A DNA stretch of 64,000 nt from Melampsora larici-populina 98AG31 (Eukaryota; Basidiomycota; Pucciniomycetes; Pucciniales; Melampsoraceae): positions 194,483 through 258,482 of the forward strand of contig NW_006768779.1 in the NCBI RefSeq assembly GCF_000204055.1. The letters are read 5' to 3'. Made by a program: the position numbers and the translations under genes. The notes beneath the pieces are model-generated. The model worked only from the letters and a program-made list of their open reading frames with translations, made no database searches and was not told the origin of the DNA. Positions 34,995 through 46,100 of the stretch are shown here, in pieces. The stretch's first letter is position 1; the number at the start of each line of letters is the position of its first letter.

Positions 34995-35223
34995 CTTTGT
35001 GCGTTATCGATTGATAGGATAATAATTTTGAAAGTGTACAAAGCCAATCCAAGGATGCCACAACAATAGCTTATTTATAATTTTATTATACAGTATTATG
35101 CTCTATCCTTTGCCGAGTACCGCAAGCATATGCATCCACCGCTTACAATCACGGTTATTATCAATATTCACCCAATTGCTGATCGGCTCTTTCACATCAT
35201 GATCATGTTAGAGTTACGGGTCA

Positions 35224-35227
35224 GAAA
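35224..35227 (-). terminator. T4 Pol III terminator after the LTR tRNA-like unit
   Basis: Read on the minus strand, TTTT follows the tRNA-like segment after seven bases. The same run is present in the other two LTRs. Confidence 0.5.
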
Positions 35228-35234
35228 AGAAAGT

Positions 35235-35319
35235 GACTAGACCAGGATTTGAACCTGGGACCTCAGTATTAGCTGAGACACATGCTAGAGTGTTGCCTTT
35301 ACCACTAGGCTATCCAGTC
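35235..35319 (-). tRNA. tRNA-like sequence inside LTR 1 (not a standard tRNA)
   Basis: 85 nt. A 7-bp acceptor stem (GACTGGA with TCTAGTC, one G-T pair), a D arm GCCT..AGGC, a 5-bp long variable arm (CTCAG with CTGAG, as in Leu/Ser tRNAs) and a perfect T arm (CCAGG TTCAAAT CCTGG). The anticodon arm is abnormal: only ACAC/GTGT pairs, leaving an 8-nt loop TCTAGCAT, so no anticodon can be assigned. A box TAGCCTAGTGG and B box GGTTCAAATCC fit the Pol III consensus. Confidence 0.75.
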
Positions 35320-35455
35320 TTGTACCAGATGTGATGGCCATGCAACTGTATGTATGTGTACAGAGAGTATGAACTGGGATAGGACCAGTTCAGTGTGATG
35401 TAGTCACATGTGTGTAGCTACATGGCATGGATCAGTAAATGATCATACATCAACA

Positions 35456-35462
35456 TCCCCCC
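35456..35462 (-). other. Polypurine tract of the TRIM
   Basis: GGGGGGA on the minus strand directly abuts the TG of the 3' LTR, the expected position for plus-strand priming. Confidence 0.8.
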
Positions 35463-35532
35463 ATGATCTGTGATATGTAGATACATGTGTTGGGTGGCTA
35501 ATCACAGACTTCCCTGACAGGATGCTTTTTAA

Positions 35533-35552
35533 CGCATACTGGGCTCATAACC
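35533..35552 (-). other. Primer-binding site, half-tRNA-iMet type
   Basis: Starts immediately after the CA of the 5' LTR. GGTTATGAGCCCAGT is complementary to the initiator tRNA-Met anticodon arm (CTGGGCTCATAACC), as in copia and Ty5, rather than to a tRNA 3' end. Confidence 0.8.
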
Positions 35553-35802
35553 TGTTAGAGTTACAGGTCAGAAAAGAAAGTGACTAGACCAGGATTTGAA
35601 CCTGGGACCTCAGTATTAGCTGAGACACATGCTAGAGTGTTGCCTTTACCACTAGGCTATCCAGTCTTGTACCAGATGTGATGGCCATGCAACTGTATGT
35701 ATGTGTACAGAGAGTATGAACTGGGATAGGACCAGTTCAGTGTGATGTAGTCACATGTGTGTAGCTACATGGCATGGATCAGTAAATGATCATACATCAA
35801 CA
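35553..35802 (-). repeat. 5' LTR of the TRIM
   Basis: The 250-bp copy preceding the primer-binding site in minus-strand sense, with a tRNA-like segment at 35666-35582. It differs from the 3' LTR by about one base (G/A near 35218 against 35565), indicating recent insertion. Confidence 0.92.
35582..35666 (-). tRNA. tRNA-like sequence inside LTR 2
   Basis: Identical by eye to the segment at 35235-35319: same acceptor, D, long variable and T arms, A and B boxes and irregular anticodon arm. Confidence 0.75.
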
Positions 35803-36333
35803 GATCACCGGCAACTTAACTACTCCAGTAATCAACACGTTGCTAGACGGAGACTCCTTGAGTTTCCCTACGATATGAAACCGCAGGAGAATGATTGCTA
35901 CTCTCGTTCAGCTTTGGTTTTTTAAGTATTTTCTTGAATGCGGCAACTATCCCCTGCGACCGAACTTACCATATCTGTAGCCGGATGATTAGTCAAGCAG
36001 GGTGGTATATGATTGCGTTTATGTACTAAGACATCTTAATTAATGTTATTTATGTGCATCTTTTTTGACGTCTTGACTTGTTTTTCGCAAAACTTTACGT
36101 GAAGCTGGATTTTTGTTGATGTATGATCATTTACTGATCCATGCCATGTAGCTACACACATGTGACTACATCACACTGAACTGGTCCTATCACAGTTCAT
36201 ACCCTCTGTACACATACATACAGTTGCATGGCCATCACATCTGGTACAAGACTGGATGCATATCGTAGGGAAACTCAAGGAGTCTCCGTCTAGCAACGTG
36301 TTGATTACTGGAGTAGTTAAGTTGCCGGTGATC
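35803..36333. repeat. Inverted duplication next to the TRIM
   Basis: The 75 bp at 35803-35877 (GATCACCGGCAAC to CGATATG) recur exactly inverted at 36259-36333. Each arm is continued outward by an LTR in opposite orientation (35553-35802 and 36334-36583), so the arms extend to about 325 bp around a 381-bp centre. The centre ends with a cut LTR (36114-36257). No gene was seen in it. Confidence 0.85.
36114..36257 (+). repeat. Truncated LTR, ends at the start of the tRNA-like segment
   Basis: First 144 bp of the LTR, in plus orientation, diverged at a few sites from the other copies (for example CACAGTTCATACCC against CCCAGTTCATACTC). It breaks off after the first eight bases of the tRNA-like part (GACTGGAT) and passes straight into the inverted 75-bp segment. 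Confidence 0.85.
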
Positions 36334-36583
36334 TGTTGATGTATGATCATTTACTGATCCATGCCATGTAGCTACACACATGTGACTACATCACACTGAA
36401 CTGGTCCTATCCCAGTTCATACTCTCTGTACACATACATACAGTTGCATGGCCATCACATCTGGTACAAGACTGGATAGCCTAGTGGTAAAGGCAACACT
36501 CTAGCATGTGTCTCAGCTATTACTGAGGTCCCAGGTTCAAATCCTGGTCTAGTCACTCTCTTTTCTGACCAGTAACTCTAACA
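36334..36583 (+). repeat. Third, full-length LTR (solo)
   Basis: A complete 250-bp LTR in plus orientation (TGTTGATG to CTAACA), not followed by the TRIM internal region and without matching 5-bp flanks (TGATC at the left, ATTTT at the right). It contains the tRNA-like unit at 36470-36554 with TTTT at 36561-36564. Confidence 0.9.
36470..36554 (+). tRNA. tRNA-like sequence inside LTR 3
   Basis: As in the other LTRs, with a single change in the variable-arm loop (CTATTA instead of CTAATA) that leaves the arm paired. All stems and both Pol III boxes are kept. Confidence 0.75.
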
Positions 36584-37320: not shown

Positions 37321-39965
37321 TCAATCTCGTAATACGGGGTGGTATACAATGTTTGTTGTAGATATGCTATCTGAATTAGATGCAATACATACCTTCACGT
37401 TCGCGGCAGTTGTGCATCTAGACAGTGCCACATACAGTTGACCGTGGGAAAATACTGGTTCAGGTAAAAGGACAGTTACTCGTTCCAAACTCTGGCCTTG
37501 GCTTTTGTTTACTGTCATACAAAATGCTGGCATGATTGGGAATTGGTACCTGTAGAAAGGTATTGGGCAGTCCTCATTACCCTTGTGCTTGAGCTTAATC
37601 TTTGGTAAACTGATTGCTGTTCCTTTAAACTCCCCAGTTAACACTCGGAATTGTAATGCGTGTAAGTCATAGTCAGTGATTAGTAATCGAGTACCGTTGC
37701 AGAGACCGTCCGCCATATTCAAATTTCTCAATACCATGACTGAAGAACCAACTTTAAGTATTAACTTGTGTGGTGGAAAACCCGGAAAGTTGAAAGAATT
37801 CAATACGTCAGATGTTACAGGGTCTGCGTATTTCTCATCCATACGGTCAATTGATGTTGATATATGATAATGTCCTGGTAATGAATTCATTACTTCTTTG
37901 TTAACCTTGTGTACTGTCTTATTCAAAGGTGTAATGACGCATCTACTTGAGTAAAGTTCAGTTAAATGACCCCAATTCTTCTGCTGAATTAAGTTCTCGA
38001 CACCTCCGTACTCTGCTTCGAGAAGTTGCTGATCGTATATTGCTGGAGGACGTACGATTGAAACATTGCAATGAAATATTGGCGTGTTTGAACTGTAATC
38101 TTGTTGAAGATCTCCGGATCCCAACTCCAAAAGCCACTTCGCAAAGTTCGCGTTATTTGGATTTGGATTTGCTGCTAGACCTCCTAGTCAGATGTTCACC
38201 GTCAGAGCAAACCTGTGTACCGAATTCCAAAGATAAGACGCTTTTAAAGTTGATTGGGCTAATTCCATCAGGTTAGCTCTCTTGACAATTGGGAGAGTTT
38301 GACGAAAGTCTCCAGCGAAGAGGACAACCTTTCCTCCAAAAGGGATATCTACACCGGTCATCTCCCTAATAGTCCTGTCCACACATTCAATGGCATATTT
38401 GTGTTGCATAGCAACTTCATCCCAAACGATGAATCGTAAGGCATCTAACCCAGCTCCCGTTAAATCATGTGGAGAAAAGGAACAGATAGAGTCCCCGTAA
38501 ACTGGTATGGGGATTTTGAAAGCACTGTGTGCTGTCCTACCATTTAGAAGTAATAATGAGGCGATCCCAGCAGCTGACACAGCTTCAAATGCGACTCGAT
38601 TGGCATTACAATAATGCAAGATGCAGTTTAATACGTATGTCTTTCCAGTACCCCCTGGTCCATCTAAAAATGCTAAGTAATGTGTATTATTAGCAATAGC
38701 ATCGCGGATTGGATTAATGACTGCACGTTGCTCGTTAGTCATAGCTGCTAGCATTGATACATATTTTCGTTGACTTTCAGTTGGGTCCACCATTCTACCA
38801 CGGTGCCGAGTAGCTTCATTAGGTAAACCTAAATCTAATATCAGCTGATTGTCCACTTCTTGTAGTCCAATGTTTTCCAAACTCGTGTCCATCGATATGA
38901 CCACCTTCTCCAGCAGGAAAAGACCGTAATTATAGATTTGTTGCTGGCTTGGTTGACAAAGAGGGTTGAGTCGTGGAATTTGGTATTCACAGTCGTCAGT
39001 TAACTCTACAACATGGTCGTTCCACAAATCTCTTGGTGATGCTGGGGCACTGTGGATCAGTATTATGGCAAGCATGTGCCTTAGTTGGCGGCCTGTCTGC
39101 CATACTGCTGCTTTGTTGATTGAGTCGTGATAATGTTGGTCACTAAGTAGTAGTCCAAGCCGATTTGCCGCCTCGCGGAATGTACTTAGACGAACTCCAT
39201 CAACTGTGCGTAATGCTTCAAAGGATGTAGGTCCGCGGATGGTTGACAATAGCAGCCTCAGGTAATAAAGGTCTCCCCGTTTGACGTTTGCGAAGTAAAT
39301 TCTTCCAACTGAAATTGTTTTGTTTTGCCTCGGTTTGAATCTTTTCGTTTTCTCGTCCCAAGTGAAGAACTTTGGTATTTCTTGATACTTCAATGTTTGT
39401 ACTGATTGCTGCGACTTAGGTAAGAGTGTGTTATCTGCGCATAACCGGAAATACTCTGTGAGTGTTGTCCTTTTGGCACGCCCAGATTCGATTGCTCTGC
39501 GCAGACCATTTTGATCCAGAAAATAAATTGTCTGAGCTTTGTTCAGGTGTAAACTGAGTCTTTGGATTGCTGGCCATCTACCGGCCAATTCAAATTTCAG
39601 CAAACACCAAACGTCTAGAGATGATGTTAGCAAAAACAACCATTAACATAATAATAGTCTGTTGACAATATAAAGAACAAACCTTCTGTGGCCAATATAA
39701 ATCGTGCATTCACATATGCCAAGATTTCGTCATTGTTTCCCGGGTCATTTACACTTGCCATGGTCCTGTCGTGACCTTTAAGGATGTATTTAAACAAATA
39801 CTTGATAGCCCTTATACTTCCTGCTACTTCAACGTTAATATGACATCCATATTTTAAAGTTAAGAACCTATTGTAAGGCACGACATTCGCATTAGTGTAT
39901 TGCACTGGTCCTTTGTCGAAGTGGCGACCATTATTTGGCCTTTTGTAGGCTGGATTACAGAATGC
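37321..39965 (-). pseudogene. Helitron Rep/helicase, 5'-truncated, one in-frame TGA
   Basis: The surviving part starts within the region following the Rep domain: NPAYKRPNNGRHF and CHINVEVAGSIRAIKYLFKY (about 39950-39780), the typical lead-in to the helicase. A 69-bp intron (39683-39615) follows, then LAGRWPAIQRLSLHL. The PIF1-type SF1 helicase motifs are complete: Walker A GPGGTGKT (about 38650), IVWDEVAMQH (about 38420), LFAGDFRQTLPIV (about 38300), GTRLLI, TVNKSQGQSLERV and LYVALSRC. A TGA at 38188-38190 replaces the expected Arg after the V-N-I residues; the frame then continues unbroken to a TGA at 37321. Upstream, the coding sequence is cut at about 39960 by the alpha-kinase repeat, so the HUH nuclease part is absent. 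Confidence 0.9.
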
Positions 39966-41376: not shown

Positions 41377-42257
41377 CACTACAAGAAAGATAATATTTTC
41401 TGGGCAGAAAATTAAATTATTGATACACAAAAATATTGAGAGGCCAGGAGAAGGGCAAAAAATAAATAAAAATATGCATCTTGTTCCCTGCGGTGAGAGC
41501 TTCACTCTCCATATTTTTCCATATTTTTACAGTCCGTATTGATAAGTGTACTAACAATAAACCTTCACAATCATCCAATTACAACCTGTAACAAGCACTG
41601 AAATTTGGCTCATTAGTGTTTAGAGAAACTTTTGATTTCTGAAAATACTCATAACTTTTTCAATTCCGGTCCAAAACGCTCGATTTTGGGTGCATTGGTA
41701 AGCTGGAATTGTCCTCCAAATAGTTCATAATAGGNNNNNNNNNNNNNNNNNNNNNNNNNNNNNNNNNNNNNNNNNNNNNNNNNNNNNNNNNNNNNNNNNN
41801 NNNNNNNNNNNNNNNNNNNNNNNNNNNNNNNNNNATCTTTTTTGTACATTTGTACATACAGATCCATAGAATGATTGTCATACTAGCTACATAGTTCTTG
41901 ACCTTATGAAAGTTTGAGAGGAAGAGTTCAGCTTTCTAATGCACTTAAAATCGAGTGTTTTGAGGCAGATTTGACAAAGTTATAGGTGTTTTCAGAAATC
42001 AAAAGTTTCTCTAAACACTAATGAGCCAAATTTCAGTGCTTGTTACAGGTTGTAATTGGATGATTATGAAGGTTTATTGTTAGTACACTTATCAATACGG
42101 ACTGTAAAAATATGGAAAAATATGGAGAGTGAAGCTCTCACCGCAGGGAACAAGATGCATATTTTTATTTATTTTTTGCCCTTCTCCTGGCCTCTCAATA
42201 TTTTTGTGTATCAATAATTTAATTTTCTGCCCAGAAAATATTATATTTTGTGTAGTG
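41377..42257. mobile_element. Fold-back CACTA MITE, 881 bp including a gap
   Basis: Left end CACTACAAGAAAGATAATATT, right end complementary to CACTACACAAAATATAATATT, flanked by AAA on both sides (41374-41376 and 42258-42260). The inverted arms extend about 350 bp inward on each side (AAACCTTCATAATCATCC, CTGTAACAAGCACTGAAATTTGG and onward), leaving a short loop that holds the assembly gap. It is nested close to the left terminus of CACTA B. Non-coding. Confidence 0.9.
41735..41834. other. Assembly gap (100 N)
   Basis: 100 Ns placed almost exactly at the symmetry centre of the fold-back MITE. Inverted arms commonly break assemblies here, so the join across it deserves caution. Confidence 0.99.
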
Positions 42258-43107: not shown

Positions 43108-46100
43108 ATGCTGTCCCCCAAAAAGAAGACTCGTCAAACCCGAAGGCATATTTGTACTTGCGAGGCATACCAATGGTCTTCTGGCAACTACATAGACCCA
43201 ACTGGGATAGCCCGTTCAGGTGTTGAGCTGAGTCCGGAAGCGTTCGATGCCCACCAACGTGCAGAACTACGACTGCAGTTTCAAACAGATGGTACTCCAT
43301 CCTCGTGGCTACCTTCAAGTCCTCGCCCTCAGACTGGTGTCGCAAGCGAAGAAGATCTAACTTCACGGTTTGAAAGAGTCGCGCTGGGCTCAACCCTCCC
43401 TTTGAGAGCATCTGGGAGTGCGCAAAGGGCTCCGTTGAACACAGAAGTAACTACAAGACCACCAGATATGCGACTTCGCACCTCACCATCAGCCTTCATT
43501 CGTAGATCTACGCCTTCCCAGGAGTTGGCCAATGTCTCAAGCAATCTGGATATTGCTGACGAGCATGTGAATACATCGCAAAGCTCTTCAGAATCGGTGC
43601 AGTTATTTGGCAACCAAATTTATAGTTGTGGTACGTCAGCTCTAGTCATGACTGATTTGTAAATGCGTTTTATCAGTCAAAGTGCTAACCCAAATTGATG
43701 TTGGTATATAGTACGATTCTTTGAATTCAGCTTAGAACTCATCAACCCGTTACATTTGCATGCAGCACTAGCTGCGGCTCTGATGAATATCTTTAGCCAC
43801 ACGTCGTTGAAGGCAACTTCATGGCTTTTGGATGTGCAAAGAACAAACATTGAGCTGTCCTTGACACATGGCTTGAGGCCAAATCCCTCACCTGCCCAGC
43901 TTCTACCTTATGATGATCAAGTTTTTCGTCGGATTCCAAAGACAATTGCTACAGTCTTTGGTTGGCTTCAAATCGACCCTACTCTTGTATATATGAATTG
44001 CTGTCCATCTTGCTTTGCTTTGTACCCCCTCCAAAGCGCCCCACCCGTCTGCAATCATAGAATTGCTAGTATTCCAGGTGGTCCGCCAGAGTCCAAGGAT
44101 TCCAATACCGAGTTATCTGACACGTTATCCAAGAACTACACTCCTGATTTGACCGATCGTCTCTGCGGTGAACCCTTACTACGATTTTCTAGAGGAAGCT
44201 CAGTCCCTGTACGACGCTATGCATTCCAGAGCTTTTCCGATTGGATCGCACGATTGCTCTCAAGACCTTGTGTTGAGTCATGGCTCGATGAGTCCTTGGT
44301 AGAATCAACCAAGCCTCTTGATCCGGACAGTCCGGTACATGATATCCATCAAGCCAGGATCTGGAAGAAATTCAAAGGCCGAGATGGGAAACAATTTACA
44401 GCTCAGAGCGGAAATCTTACCTTTGCGATGTTTGTTGATGGTATAAATCCATTTGGGAACAAGCAAAGCGGCCACCACGTGTCTATAACATTCATTGTCT
44501 TAGTGTGTCTGACACTACCCTTTCGCATTCGTTATCGGCCAGAAAACGTGTTCTTAGTGGGGGTTGTTCCAGGACCGCGGGAACCTTCACTGGAGCAGAT
44601 GAATTGGGTCTTACGCCCAATTGTAACTCAACTTCAAGTCCTTTGGAATGAGGGCCTTCTCCTTTCACAAACACATTCCTACAAGAAAGGTCGCCTCATT
44701 AGAGCCGCCCTTCTGCTCTTTATCGCGGATTTACCTGCATTACAACGCTCTCTTGGTTTTCCAAGTGCAAATGCAAAGTACTTTTGCTCCATTTGTCTAT
44801 TGATGAAGGCACAGGCAAAGAATTTCGATTCCTCAACCTGGCCACCACGTACCACTTGCCAGCACAAAAAATGGGCATATTCAGCACGGGATGCTGAAAC
44901 CGTTAAGGAACGAGAGACAATCTTTAAAACCCATGGAGTCCGTTATTCAGTTTTAGTCGATCTTGAGTATTGGGATATCATTGAATGTCATGTCATTGAC
45001 TTGATGCACAACTTGTTACTGGGCCTTCTGGCTTGGCACTGCCGACGCTTTTGGTCAATGAAAGAAATACTCAACGAAGAAGACCAGTCAACTTCAATCA
45101 GTACAGCTGAACTATTGAATCTTCTTTCAGAGCACTCCAATCCACAATCACAAGCAAAGCCTGAGGGTTTCCCCGTACCAGAAGTTGACGATGAAGAAGA
45201 TGAGAATATCAATAACATCTTGTTTTCAGAGAATACCGACTCGAGTGATGAGGATTTTCTTCCTTTGGGCGAAGGATGGAACGGCACATGGGAGCCTCCT
45301 CCAGTTGACAAGATTATATTTGATGCAGCCATGCTGAAAGAAATTAATGCATTACTACCTCATATTCACATTCCCAGCTGGATCAAACGTGCACTACCCG
45401 TTTTGGGCAAGGCTTCTTTTGGTAAACTTAAAGCTGATGAATGGCGAAATTTGTTCACAATTCAACTACCTCTTATACTCATTCCAATGTGGTACGGCCA
45501 TGATCATGTCCAATCGTCACTCCTCAAAAACTTCTGTCATTTGGTATCGCTGGTAAACCTTGCACTCAAGCGGGTGATGACTTCTGAAATCATTTTGTCA
45601 TACCGCTATCATATCCGTGAATATCTAGAGAGTTCGTTTTTGCTCTTTGAGCACTGTAAACCAACCTGTAATCATCACATGGCTATACACTTAGCTGACT
45701 GTCTTGAGAAGGCTAGTCCAGTCCGCTCTTGGTGGTCATTCCCTTATGAAAGGCTCATGGGAGATATCCTCAAAGCCAGTCACAATAATCATATTGGTGA
45801 GCTTTTCTCTGACCTTGTCACCTTCAATTGATGACTAAACTTCACGTGTTTTCTCTCCAAAAGGCGAAATTGAAATCTCATTCATGAAGAGTTTTTGCCG
45901 CGCGGGCAACCTTGCTGGGATCCTAGAAGATGAAAAACTTCCTGAAGCTCTTCATCCTTACATATCCCGCTTGAAGGAGATATACGAGCCACTGCCAAAA
46001 CTTTGAAGACAAACTTCAAACTCAAAGATGGAACCCCTTGACCCCATCATCCTGAAATCTTTGACAAAGCGCTTGAATACTCAACGGATAGATGACTGTA

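Follow-up and report, generated by a model that had tools for sequence, protein, structure and literature searches.

The element at positions 35206-35802 of the 64,000-nucleotide stretch of Melampsora larici-populina DNA analysed here (the window) raises the question of what a tRNA-like unit does in the long terminal repeats (LTRs) of a retrotransposon without genes. The element is a complete TRIM of 597 bp, whose sense strand is the minus strand. LTR comparison placed the two 250-bp LTRs at 35553-35802 (5' LTR) and 35206-35455 (3' LTR), with a sole mismatch at 35218 (G/A), on either side of a non-coding interior of 97 bp (35456-35552). The primer site GGTTATGAGCCC (35541-35552) lies directly 3' of the 5' LTR, and the polypurine tract GGGGGGA (35456-35462) abuts the 3' LTR on its upstream side; both are on the minus strand. 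By sequence comparison, a 5-bp target site duplication, GATCA, was identified at 35201-35205 and 35803-35807. ORFs on the sense strand of the TRIM were all shorter than 30 aa, and the largest ORFs wholly inside it on the opposite strand were two of 33 aa. The preliminary description of this locus, as a recent LTR insertion with LTRs one base apart, a duplication, a primer site and a polypurine tract but no coding sequence, was confirmed in these points. A tRNA-derived SINE, which has no LTRs and moves by target-primed reverse transcription, was ruled out as the identity of the element by the two LTRs, the primer site, the polypurine tract and the 5-bp duplication.

The tRNA-like unit of 85 nt occupies LTR positions 137-221, which correspond to 35582-35666 in the 5' LTR and 35235-35319 in the 3' LTR. 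As both the TRIM and the unit read on the minus strand, the unit is in sense orientation. The A box TAGCCTAGTGGT is located at 35301-35312 and the B box GGTTCAAATCC at 35245-35255 in the 3' LTR; their counterparts in the 5' LTR are at 35648-35659 and 35592-35602. A T4 run, the predicted Pol III terminator, begins six nt past the unit (minus strand; 35572-35575 in the 5' LTR and 35225-35228, AAAA on the plus strand, in the 3' LTR). A third full LTR is present on the plus strand at 36334-36583, with its unit at 36470-36555, together with a truncated plus-strand LTR (36114-36257; LTR positions 1-144) that breaks off one base into box A. The third LTR is part of an inverted duplicate of 325 bp (35553-35877 versus 36259-36583, 99.1% identical) which comprises LTR and flank and is adjoined by the truncated LTR. 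The three LTRs are therefore not three independent insertions, and their agreement tells little about selection.

ARAGORN recognised the unit in each of the three full LTRs and assigned an isotype to none. With the Rfam tRNA model the unit scored 48.3 bits (gathering score 29, E 3e-07), and nothing in the window other than the three LTR units matched at gathering scores. The predicted fold was a cloverleaf (-29.4 kcal/mol, z -2.72 over 200 shuffles) in which the variable arm is long and the anticodon loop has 8 nt. The sense-oriented 85-nt segment with A box, B box and T4 that had been noted in each LTR was thus borne out.

TRIMs with a tRNA-like sequence in their LTRs were named Helenus (TRIMp3) by Kojima in 2024, and the account in PMC10886601 lists 113 families in rust fungi (Pucciniales); Coprinopsis cinerea, a laboratory species, is also listed there with Helenus. 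The window TRIM agrees with that account in being a short element without coding sequence, with a tRNA-derived sequence containing A and B boxes in each LTR, a primer site and polypurine tract adjoining the LTRs, a copia-type primer site of the tRNA-iMet anticodon-loop type, a 5-bp duplication as given for fungi, and an occurrence in a rust fungus with several families per genome (PMC10886601). Every testable feature agreed and no defining difference was found. The window TRIM is, by its structure, a further member of Helenus. The expectation that a tRNA version in a fungus would be a distinct case did not hold, because Helenus has the same structure. The parallel drawn with the Cassandra TRIMs of plants was correct, and had already been drawn in print: both are gene-free TRIMs with a Pol III-type unit in each LTR. 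The Cassandra unit is derived from 5S rRNA, whereas that of the window is derived from a tRNA and has type-2 boxes; as the Rfam scan gave tRNA matches alone at gathering scores, Cassandra was discarded as the identity of the element.

A genome search with the whole element returned at least 29 matches, of which only the copy in the window matched over the full length. Four Helenus families were recognised in the genome, namely fam1 (the window element), fam2 (L022), fam3 (L036) and fam4 (L165). LTRs of fam2 were found at L021-L023, L027 and L028, that of L022 being followed by the primer site. Complete elements were found for fam3 (480 bp, duplication AACAA) and fam4 (562 bp, duplication CAATG). 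The tRNA-like region is common to fam1, fam2 and fam3, and BLAST aligned little beyond it. All four families show the same order of a tRNA-like unit, one T4 run, an LTR end ACA and then GGTTATGAGCCCAG. The T4 run starts 4-9 nt past the unit, and exactly one T4, with no longer T run, was present in the 29-40 nt checked past the unit in each family.

The 17-mer ACAGGTTATGAGCCCAG of the primer site occurs 25 times in the genome; nine of these places were examined, and four were Helenus and five were not. One of these five, at C7:1059402, belongs to a copia element, an RVT_2 domain lying 2.6 kb downstream of the 17-mer in the same orientation (150 of 522 candidates were scored), and the copia-type primer site of the window TRIM was recognised through the 17-mer shared with this element. 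The primer site GGTTATGAGCCC presumably pairs with the anticodon arm of tRNA-iMet. The same primer class, the tRNA-iMet anticodon loop, is described as predominant in Helenus (PMC10886601), and priming of the window TRIM in this manner seems to apply. No iMet gene was found among the 30 tRNA loci extracted, so that the assignment of the primer relies on PMC10886601 and on general knowledge.

The genome copies of fam1 were used to compare the decay of the tRNA part with that of the remaining LTR. In nine young copies or pieces, 20 of 688 sites differed in the tRNA part and 28 of 1411 in the rest (p 0.21), and in eight old copies 102 of 506 and 127 of 743 sites differed, respectively (p 0.18), the sites of the rest being an undercount where the alignment breaks off. 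The tRNA part has diverged as fast as the other LTR sites, and selection on it within fam1 was rejected. The preliminary description had read the intact stems as a hint of selection on structure, and had set against this a decay of stems and remaining LTR at the same rate, which is what the fam1 copies show. Equal decay is to be expected of dead copies.

Between families the result was different. In seven sequences from fam1, fam2 and fam3 (six of them distinct), 98.2% of 114 stem cells were paired. Eight of the 19 pairs, located in the acceptor and T stems, had changed on both sides and were still paired. The covariation score was 0.467, compared to 0.165 in shuffled alignments (none of 500 shuffles reached it) and to a maximum of 0.133 in slid controls, whereas 68 of the 500 shuffles had at least as many doubly changed pairs. 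RNAalifold predicted 26 pairs for the three families, 12 of them with kept double changes. As judged from these alignments, the compensatory changes support a cloverleaf kept between families, but fall short of proving selection inside the TRIM, because independent capture of different tRNAs would give the same pattern. The hint of selection on structure thus stands between the families and not within fam1. The main text of PMC10886601 contains neither the term 'compensat' nor 'DNA transposon', and both the compensatory stem changes and the repeated box-A insertions described below are additions to what is known of Helenus.

Equal decay of the tRNA part and the other LTR parts is also what would be seen if the unit were a passenger, that is, a tRNA-derived SINE or a tRNA which fell into the LTR and has since been copied along within a TRIM driven by Pol II. 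Copia elements are as a rule transcribed by Pol II, which was counted in favour of this explanation, and a SINE insertion has been suggested as the origin of the Helenus tRNA part (PMC10886601). A passenger would not account for the A box, B box and single T4 located at the same place before the primer site in four families, nor for the stems of three families being kept paired through double changes, and we consider this explanation unlikely. Under a second alternative, the unit is a functional tRNA gene, perhaps one with the suppressor anticodon CUA, which the element spreads. This possibility draws on the complete cloverleaf with its Rfam score, on a fam3 unit which was read as tRNA-Ser(CGA) in the joined site of L098, and on the many predicted tRNA-Sup-CTA genes of Cronartium and Uromyces that proved to be Helenus (PMC10886601). 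The 8-nt anticodon loop, the missing ARAGORN isotype and the free drift of the fam1 copies argue against it, and most Helenus units were judged improbable as functional tRNAs in the same source (PMC10886601); this possibility is very improbable. The reading that we prefer, and consider fairly probable, is that of a Helenus-type TRIM with a likely Pol III promoter, the tRNA-like unit, in each LTR; in sister copies, box A of this unit is interrupted by CACTA-type DNA transposons.

Box A was interrupted in 3 of the 14 fam1 LTR copies that span it, the three copies of the window being among the 14. In these three LTRs (C10, C55 and C2:626k) the cut lies between CCTA and GTGG, within box A, and the TIR elements inserted there are 2.0, 7.0 and 0.15 kb long, respectively. 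The insertions in C10 and C55 belong to one family (family G) and that in C2:626k is a MITE of another (family C). The insertion in C55 has three extra bases after the duplication. In fam2, box A contains a family C insertion in L028 and a single family G end in L093, both after TAGCCTA. The family C insertions in C2 and L028 have 2 and 17 extra bases, respectively, beside one copy of the CTA duplication. An LTR at L098/L099, 99.5% identical to fam3, has a 144-bp family G MITE in box A, and a fam4 LTR (L108, a single end) gives way after TAGCTCA to the terminus of a family G element. Box A was therefore interrupted in all four Helenus families seen, by transposons that also strike other units with a B box (see below), which a passenger tRNA copied along in the LTR would not explain. 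Two LTRs were broken elsewhere in the unit, both in the variable arm. One, of fam1, contains a 14-kb insertion there, the ends of which read CACCCCAAAGACA...TGTCTTTGTGGTG (C23:556774-571207, L032/L033); the other, of fam2 (L027), changes directly after GCACTGA to unrelated sequence that begins with CACTGCGGGAAAAACACTGACGCC.

Family G elements have the ends CACCCCGGGCAA...TTGCCCGGGGTG, of which 45 were found in the genome (34 in 17 pairs and 11 single) and none with the reversed control. Their terminus reads CACCCCGGG and shares just CAC with CACTA. Family C elements have the ends CACTACATGC...GCATGTAGTG, found end to end at 25 places; the copies are MITEs of about 145 bp without a gene, and all 24 copies tested begin with CACTAC (one or two bases in where the match included a flanking T or CT). 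Identical 3-bp target site duplications were present in 16 of 17 family G and 23 of 24 family C insertions (39 of 41 together). The ORF of a 7.0-kb family G element (L031) had no PF02992 match of its own, and 44 of its 57 relatives carry PF02992 (tnp2), including the best three (48-50% identical); named relatives of the L031 transposase are from Austropuccinia, Cronartium quercuum and Puccinia, the closest of them from Austropuccinia and Cronartium. Based on their sequences, the inserted elements are of the CACTA (En/Spm) type, which they resemble in the 3-bp duplications, the CACTA ends of family C (CAC in family G) and the tnp2-type relatives of family G. Three copies of the 144-bp family G MITE (C16:1025656-1025799, C39:687859-688002 and C52:28363-28506) are 99-100% identical, which points to activity in the recent past.

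Insertion into tRNA genes is known among DNA transposons from the Dada elements, several lineages of which use nt 8-13, inside the A box (PMC3706591, PMC8869645). The elements described here resemble Dada in being DNA transposons found in the A box of tRNA units. Dada elements, as characterised in these two sources, produce duplications of 6-7 bp and have a transposase distantly similar to those of MuDR, hAT, P and Kolobok, in contrast to the 3-bp duplications, CAC ends and PF02992 relatives found here (PMC3706591, PMC8869645). Dada was rejected as the identity of the inserted elements because of the length of the duplications.

Transposon-related sequences were also observed within the window itself. 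An ORF at 43756-45831 has a Transposase_21 (tnp2) domain and encodes a further CACTA-type transposase; as the exact TIR words of families G and C are absent from the window, it is likely to belong to neither family. A hairpin-like repeat at 41377-42257, with two 354-nt arms that are 92% complementary, begins with CACTAC and is possibly another CACTA-related MITE. PIF1-like helicase ORFs at 37321-39639 (minus strand) are perhaps the remnant of a Helitron. One window protein had a single match, a Melampsora protein named F-box (43% identical); like the transposase relatives, it points to a rust as the likely host.

The association of the two CACTA families with Pol III units was then scored over their joined insertion sites. 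An Rfam scan gave one sub-threshold tRNA match over 40 transposon-split flanks, which reflects the cutting of the unit in two, and for this reason joined empty sites were used with a rule requiring a B box of at least 8/10 at an offset of 30-70 nt from the insertion. The null frequency for this rule, 0.087, was derived from 20,000 random positions of the 64-kb window alone. For family G, 15 of 17 joined sites had such a B box, in an exploratory analysis in which the flanks had been read before scoring. Family C was tested blind, the rule having been written before the flanks were read; from 61 matches, 25 were end to end, and 24 were tested after exclusion of the Helenus-LTR seed (L137-L144 were unscored). 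A B box of at least 8/10 was found in 17 of these 24 sites (p 1.8e-13 against the same null), and one of at least 9/10 in 14 (null 0.004, p 5e-28). Together, 32 of 41 joined sites of the two families had a B box, compared to 8.7% by chance, and nine had none of 8/10. A T4 run was present behind the B box (at least 8/10) in 13 of 17 family G and 9 of 24 family C sites (null 0.017).

A third TIR family, from the copy at C23, was used for comparison; its ends, identified by an exact word, number 50 in the genome (4 with the reversed control), and the first 20 of the 50 were scored. On single ends, a B box of at least 9/10 was present in none of these 20 versus 24 of 89 for families G and C together (Fisher p 0.006), and one of at least 8/10 in 2 of 20 versus 33 of 89 (Fisher p 0.019), a modest contrast. 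The flank starts with TA in 14 of the 20. Some targets of families G and C are related to one another (L100/L124, L115/L128 and L114/L120), and there are thus fewer target families than sites. ARAGORN called a tRNA in 8 of the 41 joined sites; together with the single Rfam match in the flanks, this leaves two readings, degenerate Pol III units at many of the targets or a generous B-box rule.

These insertions could also be explained if the CACTA transposases recognise a DNA motif common to box A, and not the Pol III machinery, with Helenus merely carrying that motif. TRGYNNAGTGG or a similar sequence does surround the insertion at many sites, and targeting by a motif has been proposed for Dada (PMC3706591). 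When the sites were aligned on the duplication, however, no column exceeded 0.66 bit in family G or in family C, and a fixed target motif was not found. The duplicated triplet shifts over approximately tRNA nt 12-17, as read from sites with a clear A box, and one tRNA-like family was cut at two places (TCA in L100 and GTG in L124). Insertions were also present at sites whose A box is poor and which have a B box 55-67 nt on (L071, L075, L084 and L094). Motif recognition is the less favoured explanation, though not a remote one. From the sequences of the sites we infer that insertion would be guided by bound Pol III factors, a degenerate motif being a further possibility.

In the mechanism that we propose for the window TRIM, transcription by Pol III would begin in the 5' LTR, at its tRNA-like unit. 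Because a T4 run is also present in the 5' LTR, a full-length Pol III transcript requires read-through. A single T4 is short for a Pol III terminator, so it would let some transcripts through the 5' LTR; such read-through might occur often, the transcript crossing the interior to end at the T4 of the 3' LTR. With a start at the 5' unit and a stop at the 3' T4, the tRNA-like unit would be R, the terminal repeat of the RNA that is needed for strand transfer. The reverse transcriptase of a copia element would then copy the RNA in trans, starting from a half tRNA-iMet at GGTTATGAGCCC, the primer site shared with copia, and a copia integrase would insert the copy with a 5-bp duplication. The tRNA-like unit likely also draws CACTA transposases to box A (approximately tRNA nt 12-17) of type-2 units, probably through bound Pol III factors and not through a fixed DNA motif. 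The equal decay of tRNA part and LTR, the 8-nt anticodon loop and the missing isotype were counted against a promoter function, and according to PMC10886601 it cannot be concluded without experiment that Helenus LTRs are Pol III promoters.

Insertion at Pol III units is known from retrotransposons such as the yeast Ty and the Dictyostelium TRE elements. The settling of CACTA DNA transposons in box A of Pol III units is less expected than the TRIM itself. In the literature searched, targeting of Pol III promoters or genes was not reported for CACTA elements, and box-A targeting by CACTA is new as far as this search, which did not extend to Repbase, is concerned. We give about even chances to the idea that two CACTA families target the type-2 box A by way of bound factors, with Helenus units serving as expendable landing sites and the insertions as footprints of Pol III in vivo. 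If the Pol III machinery does direct the targeting, the insertions would be a separate line of evidence for the recognition of Helenus LTRs as Pol III promoters, and Pol III-competent loci would be mappable from genome sequence alone.
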